From an uncultured Chlorobiota bacterium (GTDB lineage: Bacteria; Bacteroidota; Ignavibacteria; UBA10030; UBA6906): a DNA stretch of 25,133 nucleotides. The stretch spans positions 1 to 25,133 of the forward strand of contig CAADGV010000022.1 of assembly GCA_900696645.1 (NCBI GenBank). Direction: 5' to 3'. Position numbers and translations under genes: made by a program. Positions within the stretch are counted from its first letter, which is position 1; every line of letters starts with the position of its first letter. Below, piece after piece: positions 1-12,255 of the stretch. The notes below the pieces were generated by a model. That model had not been told where the DNA came from. It saw nothing but the letters and a program-made list of their open reading frames with translations, and ran no database searches.

Positions 1-19
1 CCAACACCCAAAAACGCCG

Positions 20-60
20 CAGTGAAGGCTCCGTTCGCTACGCTCACTCCGCCTCCACTG
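20..60. repeat. imperfect inverted repeat
   Basis: The outer arms, CAGTGAAGGC at 20-29 and GCCTCCACTG at 51-60, pair at 9 of 10 positions around a centre that reads like a common dispersed repeat (TTCGCTACGCTCACTCC). It lies beyond the 3' end of the regulator gene at 175-528. It could be a dispersed repeat or a weak terminator. The rest of 1-174 shows no convincing gene. Confidence 0.4.
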
Positions 61-174
61 AACACGATGCTTCACCCTGACATTCCTACTGAGCGTAAAA
101 CCATGACATTTCTATTGGGCTTCTACATGGCAATTGCGGTTGGCGTTAGCGGTTGACAATTTTGGACTGCGGCC

Positions 175-588: not shown

Positions 589-3500
589 TCAAACCTTCTT
601 CGTCATCGCCCATCTGTCAATGAACGTGTACACAATCGGAATAGCGACAACGGTAAAGAGTGTTGACGCCACCAGTCCCCCCACAATCGGTACGGTCAGT
701 GCCCGCACAAGCTCGGAGCCGGTGCCGAACTCGAAGAACAGCGGAATAATGCCGAGTACCGTTGTTGCTGTCGTCATGAGGATCGGACGCAAGCGCTGCT
801 GCATCCCTTGTCGGATTGCATCGTTGAGCGCAATGCCCTTACGTCGCAACGCCGTGATGACATCCACCACGATCACCGCATCGTTATCTACCGCGCCGAT
901 CATGATGACGAGCCCAATGAGCGACATGACGTTGTACGCTTGTCCCGTAAGCGCCATTGCGCCAATGGCGCCGATGAACGCCAACGGACTCGTCAACAGA
1001 ATCACGAACGGATAGAGTACCGACTCATACTGCGCAGCAAGAATCATGTACACGAGAAAGATGGAAAGAAGAATGATGATCAGCAGACTCCGGAACGACT
1101 CGCGTATCTCCTCATTCTCTCCCCCGATACTGATAGCATAGCCGGCGGGCAGTGCAACGGATTTGGCCTTCTGCTCAAGCTCATCAACAACACTCCCCAA
1201 CGAACGCTCATGCACATTAGCGAGAATCACCTGTGCACGCTGCTGGTTCTCGCGCCAGATTTCCCCTTCACTTGTTGCTTCATGCCAACGCACGAAGTTG
1301 CGCAGCGGAGCGCCGCCGATTGTCGCCTCAAGCACTGCATCGAGGTTGTTTGCATGCGTGTTGCGGACACGGATCGTCACTTTCCTGTCGAACTCGTTGA
1401 GCGAAGTTGCCTCCGCGCCCTGCACCTGTTGCCTGATGAACGACGCGAGGCTTTGCACGCTCAGTCCGTGCAGCTTCGCTTCGTCGCGGTCAATTTCAAT
1501 TCTATACTCCGGCGTGCCCAATTGCAACGACGTGCGGATGTCTGTAACTCCTTGTACGGCTTGCAGTTGCTGTGCGAAGCGCTCGGCGATTTGCGCCACC
1601 ACTGCAGGGTCTTTGCCGGTGATACGAATCTTCAGATCATTCACTTCGGGACGCAGGATTTGCTCGAACGTTGTGCCGCGCGATCGGAGGGCAAACTCTA
1701 CACCCGATGTACCCTGTTGCAGCGCGGCTACAACATTGCGCGCCTCCTCCAACACGCGCGCCGTCAACCTCCCCTGCTTCACTCTTACCTCCATCGTCGC
1801 CCGTTCAAGCGCCGCGTCCCCAACGCGCCAGATGCTCGTCTCCTCCGTAGTGCCGATGGCAGAATACACTCCCTCCACACCGTCAAGACGAAGCAGCCGT
1901 CGCTCCATTTCCGCCATGCTGTTCGAGACGGCTTCGAGCGTCGCGCCTTTCGGGAACGTCATCTGAATCGTGAACCTGCTCTGATCAATATCGGGTGCAG
2001 GTTCGCTGCGGATGAAGAACGCAACCGCAACAGCAGCCGCAAACAGCCCGACGGTCGCCGCAATCACCTTGCCGCGGTGCGCAAGTCCCCACGCGAGATA
2101 CTTGTCCAATGCTGCTTCGCTCGTCCTCCTCACTTGCGAGACGAGACGTTCCAACATGCCACCGTTGCCGTGTCCGGCAATGCGTGACCTTTCACGCGAA
2201 AGCAGCATCGGCACGAGCGACACGGCCACGAACAGCGAGACAAGCAGGGAGACAGACATCGTCACTCCCATGTCAACAAAGAGCTGCGACGCCACTCCTT
2301 CGACAAATATTATCGGGAGGAAGATAGCGACGTTCGTGAGCGTTGAGGCGGTGACGGCGAGATTGATTTCTTTCGAGCCTTCCAAGACGGCATCGAGCAG
2401 CGGCATTCCCTTTTCCCGCAAACGGGTCACGTTCTCGATCACAATAATCGCATTGTCCCCCAACATGCCGATGCCGAGCGCAAGTCCCGTAAGCGAGATG
2501 ATGTTGAGATTGATGTTGAGAAAGTACATCGCGATGCATGTGGCAAGCAGCGAGACGGGAATCGTGACGCCGATGATGAGCGGATAGCGCACGCGCTGCA
2601 GGAAGAGGAAGAGTACCGCAAACGCCAGCACCGCCCCGATGGCAATTGCCTGCTGCACATCGGCGATGGATTGCGCAATGAACTCCGCCTGATCGGCGAT
2701 GACACTGAGGTGGAGTGACAGATACTCGCCGCGGAGATGATTCAGCACTTCGTGAATCCGGTCGGACACGTCAATCGTGTTGGTGCCCGCCTCCTTGCGG
2801 ATGTGCAGTGCAATCACCTCGCTGCCGTTGTAGCGCGTGATGCCTGTGCGTTCCTTGATCGTATCGCGCACAACGGCAACGTCGGAGACACGCACAAGCC
2901 GTCCCGAGGGCGTCGTATGCACAACGACGGAACGAATGTCATCCGGCGACGTGAACTCGCCGAGCGTTCTGAGCGGATAGCGGAAAAGCCCCTTCTTGAT
3001 TGAGCCGCCGGGGAGACTTACGTTGGATTGTGCGAGCGCTTGCGAGACCTGGTCGAGCGAGAGGTCGAGTGCCTCCAACTTCCTTCCGTCTGTAACGACG
3101 TGGATCTCCCTCTCCACTCCACCCAACACGCTCACTTGCGCAACGCCGTCAATCTGTTCGATCCGTTTCTTGACCAGTGCCCGCGCCGTTTCTTTCAGTT
3201 CCATCAAACCCGACTGTTTGTCGAGTCTCCAGTCCCGACCGCCGCGTCCAGTGTATCCAACCTCACCTCGTCCGCTTCCGGCGGACGCGGGGGTGAGGTC
3301 GCCGGAGGTAGAAGCCGCAGACAGAGCTATCGTCATCACCGGTTCTGTCGAGGGGTCTATGCGGAGGATTGTCGGGCGGCCTGCCTCGCGCGGCAGCGCG
3401 CCGCGCATTTGATCTAACTTTTCACGGACCTCTAACAACGCAAAGTCCATGTCAGTGCCCCAATAGAATTCCATCGTTACTACCGATTGCGCATCGCGTG

Positions 3501-3750
3501 AGATGGAGGAAATGCGTTTCGCACCGACAACCGTTGCGAGGGCCGCTTCCACCGGTTGCGTCACTCGCCGCTCCACTTCTTCCGGCGAGGTGTTGGGATA
3601 TGATGTTTGGACGGTGAGCTTCGGGATTTTGATGGGGGGAAGAAAATCAACGCTGAGATTCAAGAACGCAATAATGCCAAGCATCACTACGCCGATGAAG
3701 AACATCAGCACGGTAACGGGGCGGGATGTGGAGAGCGAACTTAGGGACAT
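589..3750 (-). CDS. RND efflux transporter permease (HAE1/AcrB-like)
   Basis: This is a full-length inner-membrane RND pump of about 1053 residues, the normal family length. It would use the proton gradient to export drugs, metals or metabolites together with a membrane-fusion protein and an outer-membrane channel. The N-terminal transmembrane helix is followed by the porter motif YPNTSPEEVE. A second membrane block around residue 432 reads GMLGDNAIIVIENV, and another near the end reads GAVDNDAVIVVDV. The usual Asp-Asp pair of transmembrane helix 4 is Asp-Asn here, and the helix-10 lysine region of AcrB is replaced by acidic residues. The porter domain contains an insertion of about 30 residues at roughly 150-180, encoded around a palindromic repeat. 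ATG at 3750 is preferred to TTG at 3756. No fusion-protein gene adjoins it; the only complete one is at 8889-10115. Substrate is unknown. Confidence 0.93.
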   Translation of the reverse strand: MSLSSLSTSRPVTVLMFFIGVVMLGIIAFLNLSVDFLPPIKIPKLTVQTSYPNTSPEEVERRVTQPVEAALATVVGAKRISSISRDAQSVVTMEFYWGTDMDFALLEVREKLDQMRGALPREAGRPTILRIDPSTEPVMTIALSAASTSGDLTPASAGSGRGEVGYTGRGGRDWRLDKQSGLMELKETARALVKKRIEQIDGVAQVSVLGGVEREIHVVTDGRKLEALDLSLDQVSQALAQSNVSLPGGSIKKGLFRYPLRTLGEFTSPDDIRSVVVHTTPSGRLVRVSDVAVVRDTIKERTGITRYNGSEVIALHIRKEAGTNTIDVSDRIHEVLNHLRGEYLSLHLSVIADQAEFIAQSIADVQQAIAIGAVLAFAVLFLFLQRVRYPLIIGVTIPVSLLATCIAMYFLNINLNIISLTGLALGIGMLGDNAIIVIENVTRLREKGMPLLDAVLEGSKEINLAVTASTLTNVAIFLPIIFVEGVASQLFVDMGVTMSVSLLVSLFVAVSLVPMLLSRERSRIAGHGNGGMLERLVSQVRRTSEAALDKYLAWGLAHRGKVIAATVGLFAAAVAVAFFIRSEPAPDIDQSRFTIQMTFPKGATLEAVSNSMAEMERRLLRLDGVEGVYSAIGTTEETSIWRVGDAALERATMEVRVKQGRLTARVLEEARNVVAALQQGTSGVEFALRSRGTTFEQILRPEVNDLKIRITGKDPAVVAQIAERFAQQLQAVQGVTDIRTSLQLGTPEYRIEIDRDEAKLHGLSVQSLASFIRQQVQGAEATSLNEFDRKVTIRVRNTHANNLDAVLEATIGGAPLRNFVRWHEATSEGEIWRENQQRAQVILANVHERSLGSVVDELEQKAKSVALPAGYAISIGGENEEIRESFRSLLIIILLSIFLVYMILAAQYESVLYPFVILLTSPLAFIGAIGAMALTGQAYNVMSLIGLVIMIGAVDNDAVIVVDVITALRRKGIALNDAIRQGMQQRLRPILMTTATTVLGIIPLFFEFGTGSELVRALTVPIVGGLVASTLFTVVAIPIVYTFIDRWAMTKKV
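3261..3298. repeat. palindromic repeat inserted inside the RND permease gene
   Basis: CCTCACC (3261-3267) pairs with GGTGAGG (3292-3298), and GTCCGC (3270-3275) pairs with GCGGAC (3281-3286) around TTCCG. It lies within the extra Gly/Ser/Arg-rich stretch of the permease and keeps the reading frame open. It resembles dispersed palindromes that can insert into coding sequence. Confidence 0.6.
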
Positions 3751-3756
3751 GAACAA

Positions 3757-4068
3757 GCCATGGATGCTACGGGAAGAAACGAAAAAGGGGGGTGAATGTC
3801 ACTCGATGCTCATGCCGGCGTTGACTTGCAGGTATCGACAAAAGCCTGCGCGGCGATCATCGATAATTCTGATGTTCTTCAATCAGCCGTGAAACAATAT
3901 GGACTTGAAACTGCTTCATCTTCTTTCATCCAATCATGCGCACCCACGATTACGCAGAGACCCGCCTGGCATTGACGCGGGTCTCATCAAAGGTTTATAG
4001 GAACTGATTACTCATTGTCGTTAAGTGTCAGAACCGAGTCGCGACGAAGAGTCCAAGTAGTGTCTTGG
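3757..4068. other. non-coding stretch upstream of the RND permease
   Basis: No complete gene is seen. On the minus strand a short open frame ends at a TGA near 3802 with RYLQVNAGMSIE, an alternating pattern like a terminal outer-membrane beta-strand. A diverged version, HLQVSAGMLYK-stop, precedes the permease remnant at 10213-10300. It may be the tail of a lost outer-membrane gene. A hairpin lies at 3957-3985. Confidence 0.4.
3957..3985. terminator. stem-loop, possible terminator
   Basis: GAGACCCGC (3957-3965) pairs perfectly with GCGGGTCTC (3977-3985) across an 11-nt loop. It lies about 85 nt past the stop of the cysteine peptide gene at 4069-4281, so it may end that transcript. No clear T-run follows on either strand, so classical rho-independent termination is uncertain. 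Confidence 0.45.
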
Positions 4069-4281
4069 TCAATCCCCGTTTTGTTGTTTATCGCATCCAC
4101 ATCCCATCGGGGTAGAAGGACAACTACAGTAAACACGTGTGCCGCCTCCGGGAAGGGCTTCTGTCTGTTGAATCCCGGGCGTCTGATCTGGTGTAGCTTG
4201 TGTTGTGGGTGCGAGAAGTAACCCAAACAGGCCGCAGAAAAACACGGAGGCAAGGCTCCCCGCAACGAGTTTTCGTTTCAT
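4069..4281 (-). CDS. small secreted cysteine-rich peptide 1
   Basis: This is a 70-residue precursor with a textbook signal peptide: a basic MKRK start, a hydrophobic core VFFCGLFGLLLAP, and likely cleavage around TQA. The mature part is short and Gly/Pro/Gln-rich, with four cysteines clustered near the C-terminus in CSC and CGC pairs. A perfect AGGAGG ribosome site lies 5 nt before the ATG. It follows the reconstructed CxSC gene (4348-4886) by 66 nt on the same strand, so it probably belongs to that operon. Two other small secreted cysteine-rich peptides lie in the island at 8133-8351 and 11381-11575; all three differ in sequence and cysteine number. I recognise no named family. A role as a secreted, disulfide-bonded peptide is an inference from the signal and cysteines. 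Confidence 0.8.
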   Translation of the reverse strand: MKRKLVAGSLASVFFCGLFGLLLAPTTQATPDQTPGIQQTEALPGGGTRVYCSCPSTPMGCGCDKQQNGD

Positions 4282-4347
4282 TGTGTCCTCCTATCATGAT
4301 TGAATGATGATGGTTGGTTATCTGCTTCAAAAAGATCGAAGCATTTT

Positions 4348-4886
4348 TCACATTTCATTTATCATGGTGAAATAACCCGTCGCATTTTCTGTTTGGGGAA
4401 TTGGGAGCGTGTGAATCACTCTGCATATGTTACCGGTATCAACGAGCATGATAAACGGTTTTGTCCGCGACTTACCTAAGACCCTTCTAGCCAACCCACA
4501 CTGTCAACTTCACACACAAAAAGTGAAGCCAAGTCTCCGTCCACCATCTCAGCACCTCTGAGACTTCGAGCCTCATACAAAACATGAACCTTGAGAGTTG
4601 TATCCGTCCGTGCAGCGTTTATGAAGAAGAGAAGATCGTCGCGGTAGCACGACGTGCACGAGTTCGTGCTTGCCACAATTACTATCTTCTTCTTGCCATT
4701 CTTTTGAAGAAATTGGCACATCTTACCTACAAAAACACTTTGAAGGTTTGCCTGCAAAGTATCGGATTGAATTCGTTCTAATGAATGAGAATTGAGCATC
4801 ATGAACACTTCGCGTTCATGATAAACAACAAATCCCAGACAAAGACTGACAAAGACTGACAAATACTGACCCCATTGCCCTCCCAT
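4348..4886 (-). pseudogene. CxSC thioredoxin-like protein 1, split by a frameshift
   Basis: The first frame (ATG at 4886, stop at 4476) gives 136 residues: a membrane-anchor-like segment GQYLSVFVSLCLGFVVY, then a beta-strand and redox-type motif VIVASTNSCTSCYRDD. It stops just after DSVGWLEGS. The adjacent frame continues as a plausible thioredoxin-fold ending, KPFIMLVDTGNICRVIH, to a stop at 4348. One added G in the GGG at the junction (near 4486) would join them into about 179 residues. The paralogue at 7132-7527 continues past the equivalent point in one frame. The gene starts 13 nt after the propeller gene stop, so they form an operon. Expected role: a periplasmic, membrane-anchored thiol-disulfide protein. 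It could be decayed, or the assembly could be short by one base. Confidence 0.65.
4841..4870. repeat. three tandem 10-bp repeats inside the CxSC gene
   Basis: AAAGACTGAC, AAAGACTGAC and AAATACTGAC lie end to end at the start of the CxSC 1 gene, encoding part of its hydrophobic segment. The 10-bp unit is not a multiple of three, so a change in copy number would shift the frame. Confidence 0.6.
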
Positions 4887-4899
4887 AACCTCGCATCGC

Positions 4900-6083
4900 T
4901 CACTGCTCCTTAACTTTGAGAACAAGAATCGTCGGAGTAGTTGGGTGTGTGGATGTATAGTCCCACCGAGTAAAATAGAATTCATCTTCATAGAAATTTG
5001 AGCCAACTAGTTCCAAATTCATTTCAATTCCTGTTATTTCCGCCTTTAAGCCCCCATCGTGGAAACGGAACAAATCGTAATAGTATGCTGGGACAGGAAT
5101 TTTGCTATACATAGGAAAATAGTTTTCGTAAGGACGGATGAGTTTAACAAGCATCCACCGATTGGTCGCCATGACTGCAGTAGGCGAGGAGTGGCTCGCA
5201 ATAACACTCCCGATCTTCTCTTCCGTGAAATTAGCCCGACCGTTGTTGAAGGAGAGTCCTGACAAGTGAGACATGTTGAGTGGAGTGAATTGAGAAGAAG
5301 TTACCTCGTACATTTTCGCCATCTTTCCTTCGATATTGTACTCTTGAATTACGTAGAACCCTTCCTGAAGCATTACGAAGAGTGAACCTGTATTTGGCCG
5401 TAAAGCAAATGGAGCAAACTTTACATACGGGCGATGGAAGAGACCCTCGGTTGGTCCAAGAACCTCTGACGGATTGGCGAAAATACCGCGTAGAATGAAT
5501 TGCTTGTCATAGAGGGCGAGATATGACCTTTTTTCATATGGCAGAAATCCATAATCATCCTTATCTGATCCGAGTCGCAAATTGGTAAACGTCCCAAGAA
5601 TAAAAGCTCCATTATGATATTCAATCGATTCCGCATTGCGATGAGCATACTGTAGGTTGCGGGAATTTAGAAGAACACCTTTCGGATCGAATTTTGTAAG
5701 TCGGAGGGGGTTCTCACCAAATGCAAATAGAGTGTCATTCTCGTCAAGTGCGAAGTCTGCAAGTCTTGTAAATTCACCTGGTCCCCTTCCGTGCGATGCT
5801 ATCCTTTTCTGAACCCGCCCCGCAGTGTCCACATGGAAAATACTTGGAGGGTAGCACAACACCAGAAAATCACCACTCTTTCGTTTTCGTACTCTTGATA
5901 TTGCCAAGAATTTTGAGGTGTCAATGTTTTGTGCAATTTGCATTTCTATTTTGCGCAATGTGTCAAAGCAAACTCCCCCCTGATAGTCGCGTGCAACTGC
6001 AACGTGGATAATGTCTGAGGTCTTTGGTCAGAGCAACCGACAAGCAGCATGAGCATTACGGACAGGCAGGTAGGGAGACGCAT
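4900..6083 (-). pseudogene. 6-bladed beta-propeller lipoprotein 1, split by a frameshift
   Basis: Starting at ATG 6083, the sequence reads a clear lipoprotein signal, MRLPTCLSVMLMLLVGCSDQ, but this frame ends at 5946. The propeller body runs in the next frame to 4900. It carries the family hallmark HGRGPGEF plus repeated NHL-like strands such as DFALDENDTLFAFG. One extra G in the GGGGGG at 5975-5980 would fuse both parts into about 394 residues, a usual length for these proteins. Such propellers sit at the cell surface or in the periplasm and probably bind ligands or proteins; the exact role is unknown. It is followed 13 nt later by the CxSC 1 gene. The start lies in the region read through by the preceding regulator gene. 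The break may be real decay, phase variation at the G-run, or a base-call error. Confidence 0.7.
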
Positions 6084-6470
6084 GGCTGAATTATCAATTT
6101 CGGACATGACGTTATCGTCGCTTAGGTTTACCCCCCCCCGTTGGCTTTGGGTTTTCCCATTCTTGCGTCGGAATTCTTCCATCGTCATACCGGTCCGTTG
6201 CTTAAACCAGCGAGCAAGAACATCATCTCGCAATTGAAGTTCACTCGCAATCTCGAAACAGGCCTTCTCTGTCGTAAGCAGCACTTTCTGCACAAACTCC
6301 AATCGAGTGTCAGCGACGAATCGCCCGATCGTCATTCCTTCCTTTCGATGAAATTCCTTGCGGAGGGAATCAATCGGGAATCCATGATGAACTGCCACAA
6401 CCTTTGCGCTCGCCGCCTTCCCCGGGTTTTTTCGTATCCAAGTTTTCAGCATCGAGGTGTCTATTGCCAT
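5946..6470 (-). CDS. stand-alone AraC-type DNA-binding protein, copy 2, read through at a poly-G tract
   Basis: From ATG 6470, preceded by TTGGAGG at good spacing, this encodes an AraC DNA-binding domain with the family signature FKQRTGMTMEEFRRK. It resembles the protein at 8452-8856 closely, including LLTT, the helix cysteine and the DTS start. After a run of nine G (6131-6139) the frame stays open and runs into the downstream lipoprotein signal peptide, ending at 5946. That makes an odd regulator/lipoprotein read-through product. With ten G the protein would end RGGGKPKRR at 6112; with eight it would end directly after the glycines. The ten-G ending resembles the alternative ending of copy 3. 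It lies 38 nt after a truncated fusion-protein gene. The probable role is a local transcription regulator. Confidence 0.72.
   Translation of the reverse strand: MAIDTSMLKTWIRKNPGKAASAKVVAVHHGFPIDSLRKEFHRKEGMTIGRFVADTRLEFVQKVLLTTEKACFEIASELQLRDDVLARWFKQRTGMTMEEFRRKNGKTQSQRGGVNLSDDNVMSEIDNSAMRLPTCLSVMLMLLVGCSDQRPQTLSTLQLHATIRGEFALTHCAK
6131..6139 (-). repeat. poly-G tract (9) in regulator copy 2
   Basis: Nine consecutive G in coding sense, at the same alignment position as the 7-G and 11-G runs of the other two regulator genes. Its length decides whether the regulator stops at once or reads into the lipoprotein gene. Confidence 0.8.
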
Positions 6471-6508
6471 GGAAATTACCTCCAAGTTGGGAAGGAAGAT
6501 ATTTCAGC

Positions 6509-6841
6509 CTATTCTGTTACGCGTATCCCCGCATCATGTGCTAATGTGTAGTGCCCGTCCACAATCACCGTATCGCCCGGTGTGATGCCCGAACGGATGG
6601 CAATGAAGCGTTCGTTCTCATCTTCGACATCAACGTAGTGCCACTTGGCAAGTCCTTGCTGCGCTGTGAATACGAGTGTCCGCTGGTCGCGCACAAGCAG
6701 CGCGGCCTTCGGTACAAGCAAGCGGTCGGCAATGATTTCGGTTTGGATTCTCACTGTTGCGTACATCCCCGGCATCAGCGAGTTGGAGGCGGGAAGGTTG
6801 GTACCGGAGGCAAGAAGAATGAGTGTGCGTCGTTGTGTCAT
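6509..6841 (-). pseudogene. C-terminal remnant of an RND membrane-fusion protein
   Basis: This holds only the last roughly 95 residues of a HlyD/RND-type periplasmic adaptor. By eye, 83 of 95 match the end of the complete protein at 8889-10115, including RLLVPKAALLVRDQRTLVF and the stretch KWHYVDVEDENERF. The match stops sharply upstream of LPASNSLMPGMY. The lipoyl, hairpin and barrel parts are absent, so it cannot work as an adaptor by itself. It sits between a permease 5' remnant and regulator copy 2, the same order seen around the complete copy, so it is a decayed duplicate of that block. Confidence 0.85.
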
Positions 6842-6944
6842 GGATTGCCGGCGTATATAGGAGGCGGAAGTTTGACGCCGTCAAATTGCGAAAAAGACAA
6901 CGGATTGTCAATACCGTATTTGCGGTAGACGCAAACCTAAGATC

Positions 6945-7080
6945 GCGCCAAGCATCACCACGCCGATGTAGAACATCAGCACGGTAATGGGCCGGGGTGT
7001 GGAGAGGGAACTTAGGGACATGAGCAAGTCAAGGGTGCTACGGGAAGAAACGAAAAATAAGGGTGAATGTCACTTGATGG
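6945..7080 (-). pseudogene. 5' remnant of an RND permease gene with its leader
   Basis: About 130 nt match the start and upstream region of the complete permease gene (near 3690-3805). Translation gives MSLSSLSTPRPITVLMFYIG and continues VVMLGAI, then similarity is lost and the frame soon stops. The shared upstream part includes CGTTTCTTCCCGTAGCA and AGTGACATTCACCC. The first membrane helix is present and the rest of the pump is missing. The space between here and the fusion-protein remnant holds CGGTATTGAC, also found at the same place in the second remnant. Confidence 0.8.
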
Positions 7081-7131
7081 ATTGCGGATGCAAAGTAAAA
7101 AGTGGCTGCTCGACAGCGCGGGGGTCAACTG

Positions 7132-7527
7132 CTATTGTTGAGGACTCCGAATGCTTATTGCATGAAGCAGCGTTTTGTAGAACGTCTCTGTTCGAGCACG
7201 ATCTGATGAGGAGCTGACATGTATCAAATAGCGAGTGTCGTTCTGCGTATCTCTCACTACCGCCGTAGGTCCGTTCCCGGACCACAACAGTGAATCTGGT
7301 GGGGAAATTGTCAGATGGCGAACAACCAAACTCTCAGGAATACCAAACTGTTGCGCAAATCTCTCTCCCTCTCGCTGTGATGGCAATAGGGAATGATACG
7401 ATACAACAATGGGAACGCTACCCGCGAGCAATAGCCAATACATCACGGCTTGCTCAATGCAACTGCCGCAGTGATCCTTCCGAACTAAGATCTCAATTGT
7501 CAATGGACGTTTGACTAACGATAACAA
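7132..7527 (-). CDS. CxSC thioredoxin-like protein 2
   Basis: This is about 131 residues with a strand-CxxC-helix start, IEILVRKDHCGSCIEQAV, and a later strand GPTAVVRDT that fits the cis-Pro side of a thioredoxin fold. It parallels the protein at 4348-4886 in motif placement and in following a propeller gene. The start is uncertain: TTG at 7527 is the nearest candidate. The frame is open upstream to a TAA at 7639 that ends the truncated propeller gene, and both lie in the same frame. No signal peptide is visible, so the native N-terminus may be lost. A role in thiol-disulfide exchange with the cysteine-rich peptides is an inference from motif and context. Confidence 0.6.
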   Translation of the reverse strand: MLSLVKRPLTIEILVRKDHCGSCIEQAVMYWLLLAGSVPIVVSYHSLLPSQREGERFAQQFGIPESLVVRHLTISPPDSLLWSGNGPTAVVRDTQNDTRYLIHVSSSSDRARTETFYKTLLHAISIRSPQQ

Positions 7528-7638
7528 TGTTGCAGTAAGTTCCTTTTCATATGTAGAAATGTCGTTCGTACCGGAAGGCAGTGTTCCGTCAATTGCTCTG
7601 CAACGGATTTCCCAATTGGCCGCATTTTGACCGGCAAA

Positions 7639-8136
7639 TTAGTACAGACTTCCACTGCTATCGACCCCTACAGATTGATGCGTGGAAAGTGAGTACCAAC
7701 CAGCACGTCCTAGCAGGGGAACGTCCTTGTCTAAGAATCTCCCGTCTACAGAAAAATAAGAAACCTTGAAGTCTTGGCAGAACACGACTTTCCCTTTCTT
7801 CATGGTCACCCAAGCAGAGTAGTTTGCAAGCTCTCCCGGGCCTCTCCCGTGTTTGCCCCACGTCGCTAATAGCTCGAAGTTACGTAGATCGAGGACACTG
7901 ATGCGCGTCATGCGACTGTCAAATAACACCAATATTGTTTCGTTCTCGTCCAGACCCATTGATTGCACCCATGCCCATAGATGGTTGGGTGCATTCGGCG
8001 GAGCCTCTACTTCTTGGACAAGTTGCAACTCTTGTGTCACATCCAGTGGTGCTTCCTGTGCGTGGTTCGGAAGCACCACCACCAAATGACACAATGCAAC
8101 GATGGACAGATTCCAAGTCACGAGTGATGCGGTCAT
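7639..8136 (-). CDS. 6-bladed beta-propeller protein 2, C-terminally truncated
   Basis: From ATG 8136, this 165-residue product has an N-terminal export signal (LSIVALCHLVVVLPNHAQ), the family motif KHGRGPGEL, and about two blades, then stops at DSSGSLY. Complete relatives in this window are about 350-390 residues, so half or more of the propeller is missing. Its ATG overlaps the stop of the cysteine peptide gene as ATGA (8133-8136), showing translational coupling. After the stop codon the same frame continues open into the CxSC 2 protein, which suggests a deletion joined the two genes. A two-blade fragment would probably not fold as a propeller. Confidence 0.68.
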   Translation of the reverse strand: MTASLVTWNLSIVALCHLVVVLPNHAQEAPLDVTQELQLVQEVEAPPNAPNHLWAWVQSMGLDENETILVLFDSRMTRISVLDLRNFELLATWGKHGRGPGELANYSAWVTMKKGKVVFCQDFKVSYFSVDGRFLDKDVPLLGRAGWYSLSTHQSVGVDSSGSLY

Positions 8137-8351
8137 GATCCGGCGCAAGCACCAGACGATTGTGGTTCTCCGTTTGGCCCTACACATTGGCACGAAGTGG
8201 GCCCTGACGTGCAAGTGTAGCCACAGCATTGCACCGATGCTCCACCACCGCAATCTGCGCTGGCACATGCCGCTTTCACTTGCTGAGTGAAGACAACAAT
8301 CTCGAGAGCAAGCACAAGCACCACCGAGAGTGAATAGAATGCTCTTTTCAT
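8133..8351 (-). CDS. small secreted cysteine-rich peptide 2
   Basis: This is a 72-residue precursor starting at ATG 8351, with GGAGG 5 nt upstream. The signal peptide MKRAFYSLSVVLVLALEIVV leads to probable cleavage near VKA. The mature part, about 46 residues, is Gly/Ser-rich with eight cysteines, including CC, CxxxC and CQC arrangements. It is the first gene after the iteron promoter at 8404-8481, and its stop overlaps the propeller start as ATGA. I recognise no named family. The even cysteine number suggests a disulfide-bonded or metal-binding secreted peptide. Small secreted peptides next to beta-propeller genes are known in Bacteroidota (NVEALA-type), but the NVEALA motif is absent, so this is only an analogy. 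Confidence 0.8.
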   Translation of the reverse strand: MKRAFYSLSVVLVLALEIVVFTQQVKAACASADCGGGASVQCCGYTCTSGPTSCQCVGPNGEPQSSGACAGS

Positions 8352-8403
8352 GATACCCTCCAACGTTTTTTTGAAGAAGTGGAATAATGTGAATTCGGGG
8401 ACG

Positions 8404-8432
8404 AATATAGTATCTCCCTATCAGTTTGTCAA
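8404..8432 (-). promoter_or_regulatory. promoter of the peptide 2 - propeller 2 operon
   Basis: On the minus strand a consensus -35 box TTGACA (8427-8432) and a -10 box TATATT (8404-8409) are separated by exactly 17 bp. Transcription would begin near 8397, about 45 nt before the peptide start. The three iterons end 10 bp upstream of the -35 box. Confidence 0.8.
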
Positions 8433-8442
8433 CAAATTTCTC

Positions 8443-8481
8443 TTTGCAATGTTAGTTTGCTATTTTAGTTTGCAATGTTGG
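8443..8481. promoter_or_regulatory. three tandem 13-bp iterons (operator B)
   Basis: TTTGCAATGTTAG (8443-8455), TTTGCTATTTTAG (8456-8468) and TTTGCAATGTTGG (8469-8481) lie end to end. The set is nearly identical to that at 12145-12183 and has the same 10-bp spacing to the -35 box. That fits an activator site. The regulator copy 3 gene ends inside the first iteron, so coding and control sequence overlap. The protein that binds is unknown; the adjacent AraC-type regulators are obvious candidates. Confidence 0.8.
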
Positions 8482-8856
8482 TATAAGCTCATGTTCGCTT
8501 AGGCTTTCGCCCCCCCCCCCGCTGCCGGATACGTGGTTGCCATGTTTCAATCGAAACTCCCGCATCGTCATCCCTGTGCGCAACTTGAACCAACGCGAAA
8601 GAACATCTTCGCGACCCTTGGTGAATTGGCAAGCAATATCAAAGCAGAGCCTATCCGTCGTGAGCAAGATTTGTTTCACTGCTTCCAGCCGAACGTCATC
8701 AATGAATTTGGCAAGCGTAACGCCTTTCTTCCTGTGGAATTCCTTGTTCAGTGTATGCACACTCATACCGTGTTGCGTTCCAAGTGCTCTTACGCTCGGA
8801 CATTTCTCCGGGTTCTCGCATACCCAGGTTTTCAGTTTTGAGGTGTCGAGTGACAT
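8452..8856 (-). CDS. stand-alone AraC-type DNA-binding protein, copy 3
   Basis: ATG 8856 follows GGAGG with an 8-nt spacer. The 134-residue protein is an AraC-type DNA-binding domain (about residues 18-105), with the second helix-turn-helix ending in FKLRTGMTMREFRLKHG. There is no sensor domain. A run of eleven G (8510-8520) encodes SGGGG, followed by a tail that ends in the iterons (PTLQTKIAN). With one more G the tail would instead be GRKPKRT-stop, similar to the alternative ending of copy 2. It begins 32 nt after the fusion-protein gene, so the two are probably co-transcribed, and it directly precedes the promoter of the peptide 2 operon, which it may control. Confidence 0.82.
   Translation of the reverse strand: MSLDTSKLKTWVCENPEKCPSVRALGTQHGMSVHTLNKEFHRKKGVTLAKFIDDVRLEAVKQILLTTDRLCFDIACQFTKGREDVLSRWFKLRTGMTMREFRLKHGNHVSGSGGGGESLSEHELIPTLQTKIAN
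8510..8520 (-). repeat. poly-G tract (11) in regulator copy 3
   Basis: Eleven consecutive G in coding sense, the longest of three runs at the same position in the paralogous regulators. Runs of this length are prone to slippage. Ten G would end the protein as GGGAKA, and twelve would give GGGGRKPKRT. Confidence 0.85.
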
Positions 8857-8888
8857 GGGATATACCTCCAGCTTGGGAATATTTCACA

Positions 8889-10115
8889 CTACGGTGTTAC
8901 GCGTATCCTCGCATCATGCGCCAGCGTATAGTGTCCGTCAATGATGATCGTATCCCCCGGCTCGATGCCGGAGCGGATGGCAATGAAGCGTTCATTCTCA
9001 TCTTCGACATCAACGTAGTGCCATTTGGCAAGTCCCTGTTGCGCCACGAACACGAGTGTCCGCTGGTCGCGTACGAGCAGCGCTGCCTTCGGTACAAGCA
9101 GGCGGTTGGGAAGTGTCTCGGTTTGGATTCTCACGCTCGCGTACATCCCCGGCATCAGGGAGTTGGAGGAGGGAAGGTTGGTCAGCTCAATCGTTACTCT
9201 GAGAGTTTTGGTTTTTGGATCAATCATCGGGTTACGGGAGATGACTCTGCCCGTGAAACTCTTGTCCGGCAGCGCGGCAACGGTCAGCTCGGCGCGTTGT
9301 CCCGGTTGCACACGCGGCGCTTCGCTTTCGATCACATCAACATCCACAAGCAGCGTCGAGAGATCAACAACAGTGCAGACAGCGCTACCCGCCTGTACGC
9401 GCTTGCCAACGGCAAGGTCGAGATTGCCGACGTAGCCCGCAAACGGAGCACGGAGTTCGGTCGCCTCCAAGTCTAACTTTGCGCGTGTGTAGGCTTCTTG
9501 CGCCGCGGCAAGGCCGCTTTTGTTGGCTATAATGTCGCCGCGGTCAACAAGCAGATAGGCGTTCGCGGCTTCGTATTCGCGCCGCGCTCGCGCCAGCGCA
9601 GGCTCGTCAATCTTCTTTGCCTGAAAGGCGCTTTCCGCATCGGCAAACCGCTGACGCACACGGGCAAGCTCCTCCTGCACATGTGCCGAATCGGGTCCGG
9701 CAAGAAACTCCGACGTGCTGAGCGCCCGGTACTCAATCTGAGCGGCAAGCAACGCTGTCGAGGCCTTCTCGAACGCGAGCCGCTGCTCGCGGTCATCCAA
9801 CTTCACAAGCAGATCACCTTTGCCAACGTGCTTGCCATTCTGCGCGTACACGCCAACAACATCGCCGCCAACGCGCGCAAACAACTCCATCTCGCCCCGT
9901 GCACGCAACACACCGTTGGTGGCAATGCTCTTGGCGAGGCTCCCCTTTTCCGCAATGGCAACAGTGACGGGGAAATGAACATCAGGCGGCAAATCAGATT
10001 GAGGTTGATGAGCAGCTTCAGGCGGTGGCGCAACGGGACGGAGAGCAAGCCAGAGAACACATGCAAGCGCTCCGGCAACAAGAGGAATAACGATAATCGG
10101 ACGTGGTCGCGGCAT
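8889..10115 (-). CDS. RND efflux membrane-fusion protein (periplasmic adaptor, HlyD family)
   Basis: This 408-residue protein starts at ATG 10115 with MPRPRP and a hydrophobic anchor (IIVIPLVAGALACVLWLAL). It has the usual adaptor plan: a first lipoyl half (VYAQNGKHVGKGDLLVKLDD), a helical hairpin of about 100 residues, a second lipoyl half (LRAPFAGYVGNLDLAVGKRV), a beta-barrel, and a membrane-proximal C-terminus (GIEPGDTIIIDGHYTLA). It would connect an RND pump to an outer-membrane channel. The gene next to it is only a permease 5' remnant, so the complete permease at 589-3750 is a likely partner; this is inference. An upstream in-frame extension to 10160 exists but is less likely. The regulator gene follows after 32 nt. 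Confidence 0.9.
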   Translation of the reverse strand: MPRPRPIIVIPLVAGALACVLWLALRPVAPPPEAAHQPQSDLPPDVHFPVTVAIAEKGSLAKSIATNGVLRARGEMELFARVGGDVVGVYAQNGKHVGKGDLLVKLDDREQRLAFEKASTALLAAQIEYRALSTSEFLAGPDSAHVQEELARVRQRFADAESAFQAKKIDEPALARARREYEAANAYLLVDRGDIIANKSGLAAAQEAYTRAKLDLEATELRAPFAGYVGNLDLAVGKRVQAGSAVCTVVDLSTLLVDVDVIESEAPRVQPGQRAELTVAALPDKSFTGRVISRNPMIDPKTKTLRVTIELTNLPSSNSLMPGMYASVRIQTETLPNRLLVPKAALLVRDQRTLVFVAQQGLAKWHYVDVEDENERFIAIRSGIEPGDTIIIDGHYTLAHDARIRVTP

Positions 10116-10212
10116 TCTCGTCAACACGAATGGGCAAACGAAACAGTTGATGACCCGCAAAAAGAAAGGTTTTTCCGAAGAAAGGTCAATACCGTGTTCG
10201 CGGCAGAGGTAT

Positions 10213-10300
10213 AAGAACCATCAACGCTGAGATTGAAGAACGCGATAATACCAAGCATCACTTGTAGAGCATACCAGCGCTGACCTGCAAGTGCTGAGTC
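10213..10300 (-). pseudogene. second remnant of an RND permease 5' end
   Basis: The minus strand reads VMLGIIAFFNLSVD, matching residues about 24-37 of the complete permease, before losing similarity. Just upstream is HLQVSAGMLYK-stop, matching the sequence ahead of the complete gene but with the leader and first codons deleted. CGGTATTGAC follows near 10195, as in the other remnant. It starts about 20 nt after the propeller 3 stop. It is a deletion scar of a duplicated efflux locus. Confidence 0.75.
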
Positions 10301-10322
10301 ATGACCTGTTAATACCGCCGAT

Positions 10323-11381
10323 TCAACGTTTCCACACTGTAATTGTTGTATCGGCGAGGGAGAAGATGTGGGCTCCCGTTACAACGGCGTCGCGCACGCG
10401 TTGTCCGAGTACAATTGAATGAACATACTTTCCGTCTTGAGCAGAGTAGACATCAATTCTGCTTTCCTTGGCGTCTTGAGGACCGACGCGGCTGAGGACG
10501 TAGAGCGTATCCTGCCAACAAGAAAGGGCCAGGGCGGCCAATGGAACATTCCGGTGATCTATAGATGAGCCTCCATCCGGTGAAAGCGTGATTCTTGGCC
10601 ACGGAATCTCTACTATGGTCCGCACAAGAAATTCACTCTCCCCCTTATGACTAAACCGCGCCAGTAGGCCTGAATAGTAAGGCGCGAATACAATGGCTCG
10701 CGAGCCGAGCCTCGCCAACGCACCATCAAGCACGATTCCATACTTCACCTGTTCTTCAATTAAACGACCGAAGCCGAGCATGCGACGTCCCAGCGAATCA
10801 TAGAAGGCAAAGAGGCCGTCCTGTCCATCGAGCATGAGCACAAACTGATTTGACGAAAGAACTTCAATCCGAAGAGGAACTGCGTTGATCCTGATAGTCC
10901 GCAGGAGCGACCCGTCTTGCCTGAACACCGTAACCAATCCTGTCTTCCCGTCGCACACCCAGATGTTCATTTCTGCATCTACAGTAAAGTCCCGCGGGTT
11001 GAGAAACTCTCCAGGACCGCTCCCCTTGCCTTTGCCGAACTTCATCAGAAGCTTCCCGTCACGGGAGAATTTCTTTACAAGATTGTCTCCCGCATCAACC
11101 ACATAGATATTCTCGTATCTATCGGTGCGCAACGTCCGAGGATGAAATAACGAGTATTCCGCAGTTGACTTTATGATGCTCGAAAGAATGGGTTTCTTGG
11201 AATGAATAGAAACCTGACTCTGTACTGATTGACTCTCTGGCTCCGCACCAATACTGCGGGGTGTAAACAGCGTGGATTGCGGTTGGGCAAGCTGTCCAAT
11301 CAAATACCCCGATACAATGATTACCCCGATTGCTGAACCGAAGAAGCGGGGTGGGCGATCATTGCCAAGTCTGGCGCTCAT
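10323..11381 (-). CDS. 6-bladed beta-propeller protein 3 (complete)
   Basis: This 352-residue protein has an N-terminal membrane or signal segment (FFGSAIGVIIVSGYLIGQLA, about residues 13-32), then NHL-type blades: PRTLRTDRYENIYVVDAGDN, the hallmark GSGPGEFLNPRDFTVDAEMN, and further repeats such as SRIDVYSAQDGKYVHSI. Length and motif spacing suit a complete six-bladed propeller facing the periplasm or outside. Its ATG overlaps the peptide 3 stop as TAATG, so the two are translationally coupled. It is the third gene of the iteron-controlled operon MauE - peptide 3 - propeller. Unlike copy 1 it has no lipobox. The ligand is unknown. Confidence 0.82.
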   Translation of the reverse strand: MSARLGNDRPPRFFGSAIGVIIVSGYLIGQLAQPQSTLFTPRSIGAEPESQSVQSQVSIHSKKPILSSIIKSTAEYSLFHPRTLRTDRYENIYVVDAGDNLVKKFSRDGKLLMKFGKGKGSGPGEFLNPRDFTVDAEMNIWVCDGKTGLVTVFRQDGSLLRTIRINAVPLRIEVLSSNQFVLMLDGQDGLFAFYDSLGRRMLGFGRLIEEQVKYGIVLDGALARLGSRAIVFAPYYSGLLARFSHKGESEFLVRTIVEIPWPRITLSPDGGSSIDHRNVPLAALALSCWQDTLYVLSRVGPQDAKESRIDVYSAQDGKYVHSIVLGQRVRDAVVTGAHIFSLADTTITVWKR

Positions 11382-11575
11382 TACTCCGCCGTGAAGCAGT
11401 AGTCATATATCGTACCGTCGGCTGCACGGCAGCACCGGTTTGTGCAGTTAGGTACGCAGTTAGGAGAGGGACAATGAGGGCCGCCAAAAGTCACTTCAAC
11501 GTGTTCAATGACCAGACTCGCTACGACAAGTACGAGCAGAACTACAACCCGCAGGTATCTCAACATACTTCTCAT
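11381..11575 (-). CDS. small secreted cysteine-rich peptide 3
   Basis: I chose ATG 11575 because AAAGGAG lies 8 nt upstream; another ATG at 11593 overlaps the MauE stop as ATGA. The 64-residue precursor has a hydrophobic signal (VVVLLVLVVASLVIEHVEV) and a mature part of about 35 residues with six cysteines, including CPSPNC, CTNRCC and a final YC. Its stop overlaps the next start as TAATG. The MauE-like gene immediately upstream suggests that redox handling of these cysteines matters; this is inference. It is not recognisably homologous to peptides 1 and 2 beyond architecture. Confidence 0.78.
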   Translation of the reverse strand: MRSMLRYLRVVVLLVLVVASLVIEHVEVTFGGPHCPSPNCVPNCTNRCCRAADGTIYDYCFTAE

Positions 11576-11589
11576 TGCACCAACTCCTT

Positions 11590-12006
11590 TCATGAAGATT
11601 TGAAAGCACGGTGGATTTGAAACAAAGACCAAATAATAGCCACATTGATGATAGTGTGAATGGCAATCGTTTTAGGTTCGGGAACGGAAAACCAGCATCC
11701 ACAATCGGAAAGCGGCATGAAGTATTTCTGTAACAGACTCGCACCTGTGACCAACATGAGCATGATAGCGGCTCCTAACGACGCCAGCGGACGCATTGAT
11801 GTGAAAAAGAGACACAAGCCCAAAAACAACTCCAACAGAATGACAGTCACCCCTACAGAGGTCGCCCATTGCAGCGGCACGAACCAGTAGTTGCCTAGGC
11901 TGCGAATGAAGTCACTGAAGTGAACAATCTTGTCAAAACCTGTGGCTATGAGGAAAAGACCGATTAGTATCGCTATGATTTTGAAGGCTTGGGCTTGAGT
12001 GACCAT
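11590..12006 (-). CDS. MauE/DoxX-like redox-associated membrane protein
   Basis: This 138-residue integral membrane protein has four hydrophobic helices and the sequence DCGCWF near residue 103, matching the CGC-type motif of the MauE family. In methylamine utilisation, MauE is needed for maturation of a disulfide-rich periplasmic subunit, and relatives are linked to thiol oxidation. Here it leads an operon with a six-cysteine secreted peptide and a propeller, so it may help oxidise or reduce the peptide. That step is inferred. AAGGA precedes the ATG, and the iteron promoter lies about 100-180 nt upstream. The stop overlaps an ATG as ATGA. Confidence 0.82.
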   Translation of the reverse strand: MVTQAQAFKIIAILIGLFLIATGFDKIVHFSDFIRSLGNYWFVPLQWATSVGVTVILLELFLGLCLFFTSMRPLASLGAAIMLMLVTGASLLQKYFMPLSDCGCWFSVPEPKTIAIHTIINVAIIWSLFQIHRAFKSS

Positions 12007-12105
12007 CGCGGTGATCCTTCTTCATGCCGCACACTTTTACAATGATTGAAGTGTGTGTCACAATGAACAACCATTGGAACAGCATCACGTGTGAATGAAC
12101 ATGTA

Positions 12106-12134
12106 AATTTATGCTCTCGCACAAGCCAAGTCAA
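12106..12134 (-). promoter_or_regulatory. promoter of the MauE - peptide 3 - propeller 3 operon
   Basis: The minus-strand -35 box TTGACT (12129-12134) and -10 box TAAATT (12106-12111) are separated by 17 bp. The layout relative to the iterons equals that at 8404-8481. Transcription would start near 12099, giving a leader of about 93 nt before MauE. Confidence 0.78.
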
Positions 12135-12144
12135 GCAAATTCTC

Positions 12145-12183
12145 TTTGCAATTTTGGTTTGCTATTTTAGTTTGCAATGTTAG
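12145..12183. promoter_or_regulatory. three tandem 13-bp iterons (operator A)
   Basis: TTTGCAATTTTGG (12145-12157), TTTGCTATTTTAG (12158-12170) and TTTGCAATGTTAG (12171-12183) stand 10 bp upstream of the -35 box. The middle unit is identical to that of operator B and the outer units differ by a few bases. Conservation of the array, spacer and promoter across two loci argues for a shared regulator. Confidence 0.8.
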
Positions 12184-12255
12184 TAGGAAACCTATCGTCG
12201 TCTGAGGTTTCCCCTCGGAGTCTATCTTAGTGAGTTTGGCTTTCTCATTAACTAT
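12184..12255 (-). pseudogene. possible 3' remnant of a fourth AraC-type regulator gene
   Basis: The minus strand upstream of operator A reads EGKPQTT followed by a frame open into the iterons as TLQTKIAN, the same tail seen in regulator copy 3. The bases GGGGAAACCT and GACGACGATAG resemble the sequence after the G-run in copy 2. No DNA-binding domain remains. The match is short, so this is tentative. The rest of 12184-12298 shows no gene. Confidence 0.4.

Follow-up and report, generated by a model that had tools for sequence, protein, structure and literature searches.

RND (resistance-nodulation-division) pumps have mostly been studied as drug and metal exporters. CusF, the small periplasmic partner of the RND pump CusCBA, is a copper-binding protein that lacks a disulfide framework, and the mau cluster combines MauE, a thioredoxin-like protein, a small cysteine-rich subunit, and a propeller. 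A role in disulfide formation has been proposed for MauE and MauD, and genome mining has yielded candidate decRiPPter families in which small precursors are encoded beside mauE/mauD in Streptomyces (PMC7794033). Heat-stable enterotoxin II (STII) of Escherichia coli is a Sec substrate that acquires disulfides and is then released from the cell via MacAB-TolC (PMC8277102). Here we analyze a locus of an uncultured Chlorobiota bacterium in which similar parts meet. The window, meaning the whole stretch of DNA analyzed, is the entire 25,133-bp contig CAADGV010000022.1 (C22) from a 4.2-Mb genome (G000). It encodes three small cysteine-rich peptides (pep1 to pep3), six-bladed propellers, and thiol-redox proteins in cassettes that sit within and next to an RND efflux operon (adaptor, 10160-8889; pump, 3756-589). 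The original prediction framed these genes as a peptide/propeller/thiol-redox module and left the adaptor, the adaptor and pump remnants, and the nearby pump unnamed.

Cysteine-rich peptides and one RND adaptor subfamily

The window adaptor (8889 to 10160, minus strand; TIGR01730, 193.5 bits against a cut-off of 94.9) belongs to the AKWxYV subfamily, which we defined from locus alignments A1 and A2 by an invariant GLAKWxYV motif and which is present in 127 of 395 genomes of the phylum. We surveyed 70 subfamily loci (60 fetched loci plus 10 from the order), annotated with hidden Markov models (HMMs) built in this analysis, and compared them with 40 RND adaptors from outside the subfamily (TIGR01730), many of them encoded in the same genomes. 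A same-strand cysteine-rich peptide was encoded within 9 kb at 32 of the 70 subfamily loci versus 1 of the 40 controls (P = 3e-7); the window is one of the 32, and its count takes in a likely false positive (17635-17312). Propellers were present at 44 subfamily loci and 2 control loci, and thioredoxin-like or MauE proteins at 22 and 2; for these two categories the HMMs, trained on cassette loci, may be biased toward the subfamily set, and the peptide rule is homology-free. Peptide and propeller occurred together at 28 of 70 subfamily loci versus 1 of 40 controls, in 25 of 45 genera, and the linkage was seen on either side of the adaptor, so that the recurrence of the predicted module is borne out in related genomes. 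N-termini were called signal-like by a simple hydrophobicity rule rather than by a dedicated signal-peptide predictor. The background of such open reading frames (ORFs), measured on the opposite strand, was 0.07 per locus in subfamily and control sets alike, which the peptides exceed. These counts show that the peptides are associated with one adaptor subfamily; their export and function we infer from sequence.

As predicted, three small signal-peptide-like precursors with four, eight, and six mature cysteines were read as minus-strand ORFs. pep1 (4069 to 4281; 70 amino acids) has a signal-like N-terminus and a CxCP-x5-CxC framework with four cysteines, pep2 (8133 to 8351; 72 amino acids) has eight mature cysteines, and pep3 (11381 to 11575; 64 amino acids) has six (CPxPxC...CC). 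For two of the three, homologs with a similar arrangement of cysteines exist in a second family of the same order, and the homologs of pep2 and pep3 in Ignavibacteria bacterium K_DeepCast_100m_m2_316 (G039) keep most or all cysteine positions and little else. Mature pep2 differs from its counterpart in a genome of the same genus (G001; locus L033) by five synonymous changes and one nonsynonymous change, a nonsynonymous-to-synonymous rate ratio (dN/dS) of 0.06, in agreement with the purifying selection expected of a functional peptide gene. Peptides of the pep1-to-pep3 class are real genes.

Mature cysteine counts among 54 nonredundant adaptor-locus peptides were 4 (26 peptides), 6 (17), 8 (6), 10 (1), 12 (1), 5 (2), and 7 (1). 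The number is even in 51 of the 54 (P = 3e-5 even with 72% taken as the chance expectation), and such counts would fit disulfides; parity by itself does not distinguish the class, since 9 of 11 candidates away from these adaptors also have even counts. Family searches with the peptides (Pfam, NCBIfam, and PDB profile) returned no match except one to NVEALA. A class-wide profile search with pep2 and pep3 gave solid matches in G000, G001, and G039 only, and the peptides are therefore traceable by genomic context and not by sequence search alone. In four class relatives (L118, L120, L122, and L123), the precursors have a common long leader (GDISLxGxxxxLFExTYA-like) and variable cysteine cores, which resembles a leader-core split. 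No gene for a GG-leader/C39 peptidase ABC transporter was seen among the annotated ORFs, with no search aimed at C39, and the leaders look Sec-type.

Three six-bladed propellers had been predicted. Propeller A (10323 to 11381; DUF5128, 33 bits) and propeller C (4900 to 6090, main ORF 5958-4900; 28.6 bits) exceed the DUF5128 cut-off of 22.9, and propeller C is frameshifted and propeller B (7639 to 8136) truncated; all three are on the minus strand. Propeller A is NHL-like (AF2 model with pLDDT 78; top Foldseek match Brat NHL, TMt 0.78). A peptide lies immediately upstream of its own propeller in 35 of 40 pairs. Among the top 8, 15, or 25 propeller pairs by similarity, peptide-core similarity exceeded that of all 5,000 permutations, and did so too when labels were shuffled only inside clades (P = 2e-4), in a test of peptide cores only that was chosen after the outcome of a whole-matrix Mantel test was known. 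That Mantel test found no significant correlation between peptide and propeller, as expected because most pairs are beyond alignment, and the claim of co-variation is therefore limited to recognizable close relatives. The predicted partnership of propeller and peptide is supported to that extent. The closest class-wide relatives of propeller C, in G243 (33%) and G279 (28%), occur at the same kind of locus and are accompanied by peptides with the pep1-like CxCP...CxC framework, and, beyond the genus, the nearest relative of propeller B is accompanied by pep2-type peptides. For pep3, core-propeller co-variation was not seen, its G039 counterpart having a distant propeller.

Propellers also occur in other settings. 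At four loci from metagenome-assembled genomes (MAGs) of Aminicenantes and Acidobacteriota (L056, L057, L058, and L060), related adaptors have one to three propellers beside RND genes and no cysteine peptide was found, so the link between propeller and pump may predate the peptides. At locus L034 (7433-19711) of another genome of the same genus (G002), propellers alternate with proteins of 4 to 15 CxxC motifs, possibly multihaem or thiol-rich exported proteins, without an RND adaptor.

Cassette exchange between adaptor and pump

All module genes lie on the minus strand, as predicted, in the order MauE, pep3, propeller A, RND 5' remnant (43 bp), RND adaptor, AraC1, pep2, truncated propeller B, CGSC thioredoxin-like protein, RND 5' remnant, adaptor 3' remnant, AraC2, propeller C, CTSC thioredoxin-like protein, pep1, RND pump, and a third AraC gene. 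Repeated fragments of the adaptor 3' and pump 5' ends border the cassettes, namely, an adaptor 3'-end remnant at 6499 to 6841 (direct repeat D1, 85% identical to 8879-9178; phmmer match to the adaptor) and RND 5'-end remnants at 6947 to 7079 (D2, 89% identical to 3676-3808) and 10220 to 10262 (D5, 93% identical to 3646-3688). The outer flanks of the window and of G001 align at 83 to 89%, and the pep2 cassette is common to both (91%). The pep1 cassette is swapped in G001 for an unrelated peptide, propeller, and CKPC thioredoxin-like protein between AraC (91%) and RND (89%), and the MauE-pep3-propeller A cassette is absent, with an RND 5' remnant in its place. This comparison shows the gain, loss, and replacement of cassettes in the adaptor-pump interval, where pieces of the adaptor 3' end and of the pump 5' end stay behind. 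Synonymous divergence from G001 is 0.10 to 0.25 in the shared cassette, 0.39 in RND, and 0.54 in the adaptor, as expected under cassette recombination.

Order relatives, which are MAGs deposited under Ignavibacteria/Ignavibacteriae and Bacteroidetes, retain the order adaptor-AraC-cassettes-RND, and one of them, G039, has homologs of pep2 as well as of pep3. Its gene order (adaptor-AraC-pep2 homologs-propeller-thioredoxin-RND1-AraC-pep3 homolog-propeller-MauE-RND2) looks like the undisturbed arrangement. Contig C43 of the window genome encodes MauE, a propeller A paralog (217 bits), and a second RND pump and has a pep3-like ORF with a frameshift, and G001 has two adjacent RND genes with no cassette in between. 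Window positions 1 to 150 and the right end of G000:C43 have in common an insertion sequence (IS)-terminal-like sequence (CCAATAGAAATGTCA / TGACATTTCTATTGG and GACATTCTTACTGGG-like), which suggests that a mobile element between the third AraC gene and a MauE-propeller-RND2 cassette is the junction of C22 with C43.

Reading frames are open for propeller A, MauE, the adaptor, the pump, AraC1, and all three peptides; broken genes occur in two of the three cassettes. Propeller B ends at a TAA at 7639 and lacks 669 bp relative to G001, an in-frame deletion that also removed the start of the neighboring thioredoxin-like gene, and a frameshift near 5980 separates propeller C from its lipoprotein-like start (LVGC). 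Because the long surrounding genes are intact, we read the broken propeller B, propeller C, and CTSC genes as local decay and not as poor sequence; certainty would need reads.

The pump (589 to 3756, minus strand; ACR_tran, Pfam PF00873, E = 4e-222) is an inner-membrane component at the downstream end of the interrupted adaptor-pump operon. It scores under every NCBIfam RND cut-off, with RND_permease_2 as its best model. The operon has both marks of RND tripartite efflux, an adaptor above the TIGR01730 cut-off and a PF00873 pump. MauE (11590 to 12006, minus strand; PF07291, E = 4e-17) is the membrane redox protein that had been predicted. Both predicted CxSC thioredoxin-like proteins are present on the minus strand, with no Pfam match of their own. 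The CGSC protein (trx1; 7132 to 7638), its N-terminus deleted, models as a thioredoxin fold near ResA/CcmG, with Foldseek matches to ResA/CcmG/DsbE. The CTSC protein (trx2) has an N-terminal part with a transmembrane-like start at 4476 to 4884 and, by sequence reading, a frameshifted C-terminal part at 4348 to 4494; its CxxC column is invariant in alignment A7. A ten-base tandem repeat (3.3 copies) at 4838-4870 occupies the membrane-segment coding part of its gene.

Two small AraC-type regulators of ~135 amino acids with helix-turn-helix (HTH) domains bear out the prediction, AraC1 (8452 to 8856; HTH_18, E = 2e-9) and AraC2 (6095 to 6470; HTH_18, E = 1.8e-6, under the curated cut-off), and a third lies downstream of the pump (175 to 528; HMM, E = 1e-44), all on the minus strand. 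Two cassettes begin with three 13-nucleotide direct repeats immediately upstream of a -35 hexamer, at 8443 to 8479 and at 12145 to 12184 (direct repeat D4), both on the minus strand and found with TRF. The repeat core occurs twice in the whole genome, both times at cassette starts, and the repeats are likely an AraC-type activator site. The adjoining promoter-like sequences, minus-strand consensus matches only, are TTGACA-17-TATATT upstream of pep2 (8404 to 8432; 11/12 match) and TTGACT-17-TAAATT upstream of MauE-pep3 (12106 to 12134; 9/12 match).

The AraC genes also carry guanine tracts (G11 in AraC1, G9 in AraC2, and G7 in the third), and the only G/C runs of at least 7 in the window lie at their 3' ends (plus-strand C11 at 8510, C9 at 6131, and C7 at 188). 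A G or C tract of 7 to 11 is found in most AraC genes of the order that were examined, even in AT-rich genomes (e.g., L033 at 5448 and 8594, L053 at 11630, and the AraC genes of L040 and L046). On/off phase variation through these tracts was examined on paper: the HTH is intact in every frame and slippage alters the C-terminal tail only, so a simple on/off switch is unsupported.

A possible export pathway and competing explanations

We consider it an even bet that the peptide genes form exchangeable cassettes within a tripartite operon of the RND type that is dedicated to export. In such a pathway, an AraC-type regulator would switch a cassette on, and the small precursor would be exported by Sec and then cleaved, to judge from the signal-like N-termini and from a signal-peptidase-I-like gene in NVEALA clusters. 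Its even set of cysteines would be oxidized with the aid of the TlpA/ResA-like CxxC proteins and MauE. The folded peptide might then be recognized by its cognate six-bladed propeller, a periplasmic protein or lipoprotein whose gene is adjacent, as the co-variation suggests, and be passed to an adaptor-RND-TolC pump and released, a step to which operon position, subfamily-specific linkage, and a fusion of MauE and adaptor in a single 552-amino-acid ORF of G005 all point. Several observations weigh against this pathway. Export, disulfide formation, and substrate identity rest on inference, and the nonsignificant Mantel test confines the co-variation to the most similar propellers. No peptide was detected at 38 of the 70 subfamily adaptors, so the pump may have other substrates; genes are broken in two of the three cassettes of the window genome; and the MauE-adaptor fusion is known from one MAG only (79% complete, 6% contaminated). 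The precedent pump, MacAB, is of the ABC type, and no RND pump is known to us that is dedicated to a peptide. That RND-dependent secretion of disulfide-rich peptides extends across the Bacteroidota, with peptide and cognate propeller swappable via the adaptor-pump interval and NVEALA as one branch, is a proposal to which we would give slightly less than an even chance.

The peptides could instead be bacteriocin-like toxins and the propeller lipoprotein their immunity protein, in a polymorphic antagonism locus with the same export route. The exchange and decay of cassettes, the several cassettes per locus, the hypervariable cores, and the co-inheritance of peptide and propeller would all suit such a locus, as would the lipobox-like motif found in 20 of 36 paired propellers. 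However, no toxin homology was found in the Pfam, NCBIfam, and PDB profile searches, and immunity proteins are usually small and specific, for which a propeller of 350 amino acids would be unusual. We regard this explanation as unlikely but a serious contender.

Peptides that act as extracellular signals (pheromones), sensed or gated by the AraC and propeller parts, would account for the AraC-type regulator at nearly every locus of the order, the candidate activator repeats at two cassette promoters, and the pairing of conserved leaders with variable cores. The AraC proteins, however, consist of the HTH only, without a sensor domain, and are cytoplasmic, and no linked receptor or kinase was seen, which makes signaling quite improbable. 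A shade more doubtful again is the view that the adaptor-pump gap is a mere insertion hotspot and the peptide modules are functionally unlinked to the pump. The duplicated remnants, the broken genes, and the IS-like end of the contig do mark a recombination-prone site, but the linkage recurs across 25 genera and to both sides of the adaptor, does not extend to other RND adaptors of the same genomes, and is accompanied by the MauE-adaptor fusion.

Cysteine-rich small periplasmic proteins adjoining an RND pump could also be metal carriers for a metal-efflux pump, as in CusF/CusCBA, and the heavy metal efflux (HME) model, TIGR00914, ranks second for the window pump. Its score of 466.8 bits falls short of the 701.45 cut-off, though, and RND_permease_2 scores higher; even cysteine counts and thioredoxin-like partners fit disulfides, and the frameworks are not conserved, so we think metal carriage very unlikely. 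The least credible explanation is a periplasmic enzyme resembling methylamine dehydrogenase (MADH), with a propeller and a small cysteine-rich subunit matured by MauE and a MauD-like thioredoxin and with the pump incidental: the same four kinds of parts make up the mau cluster and a disulfide role is proposed for MauE (PMC7794033), but the fold matches a six-bladed NHL propeller and not MADH, the peptides are hypervariable and linked to an adaptor subfamily, and tryptophan is absent from pep1, pep2, and pep3, which therefore have no tryptophan tryptophylquinone (TTQ) pair.

The literature consulted on NVEALA, on propellers with MauE, on propellers with a cysteine peptide and RND, and on RND with a peptide and a signal peptidase, a coverage that excluded most subscription journals, does not describe this system; its parts are known, and their arrangement, exchange, and breadth appear to be new. 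If the proposed export pathway is real, one subfamily of RND pumps would come with peptide substrates of its own, together with redox helpers and cognate binding proteins, and RND pumps would thereby acquire a role in secretion. The orphan NVEALA/propeller gene pairs of Bacteroidota would gain a pathway, and a large reservoir of disulfide-bonded peptides would be at hand to test for antagonism or signaling.

Comparison with NVEALA and other known systems

The window peptides had been noted to lack the NVEALA motif and were therefore proposed as a possible separate class. Neither pep1, pep2, nor pep3 has a Pfam match to NVEALA (PF14055), and the window leaders end in TTQAT, VKAAC, and VEVTF, without the NVEALA-type motif at the leader end; an adjacent six-bladed propeller, as in NVEALA pairs, is present. 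One of 55 peptides, at L125, does match PF14055 (E = 2.7e-11). NVEALA peptides over the cut-off occur in two of 149 sampled genomes, both of which have clusters ~8 to 22 kb from a subfamily adaptor, with NVEALA-propeller pairs, a signal-peptidase-I-like gene, and a CTSC thioredoxin-like protein. The signal-peptidase-I-like genes (L226, 13835-14725; L227, 1265-2137), recognized by eye via SMxPxLxxGD, are possible dedicated processing enzymes. The window peptides are not NVEALA by test, yet both share one genomic setting. The suggested separation thus stands for motif and Pfam family and fails for genomic context: because NVEALA peptides adjoin the same adaptor subfamily, there appears to be a broader peptide class that includes NVEALA rather than one apart from it. 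Both have small signal-led peptides with few cysteines, six-bladed propellers, a CTSC thioredoxin-like protein, and the same RND adaptor subfamily, whereas the window cassettes also contain MauE and AraC, differ in cysteine framework, and lie inside the adaptor-pump interval.

Other systems resemble the window in part. MauE, a thioredoxin-like protein, a small cysteine-rich component, and a propeller are shared with the mau cluster, from which the window differs in its lack of tryptophan for TTQ, its NHL-type six-bladed propeller, its variable peptides, and its RND pump context. In the decRiPPter families, too, small candidate precursors are encoded next to MauE, whose suggested role is disulfide formation, but Streptomyces is Gram-positive and has neither an outer membrane nor RND-TolC-type export. 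CusF-CusCBA also joins a small periplasmic protein to an RND tripartite pump, and the window pump differs from CusCBA in its score below the HME cut-off. The proposed logic of Sec export, periplasmic disulfides, and release through a tripartite pump is that of STII and MacAB-TolC, and the peptides have the signal-like N-termini (by the simple heuristic) and, in 51 of 54 cases, the even cysteine number that this logic calls for. To our knowledge, no dedicated cassettes of redox, propeller, and peptide genes accompany MacB. The window pump is of the RND type (PF00873) and not a MacB-type ABC protein, and the system would thus be analogous to MacAB-TolC rather than a member of it.

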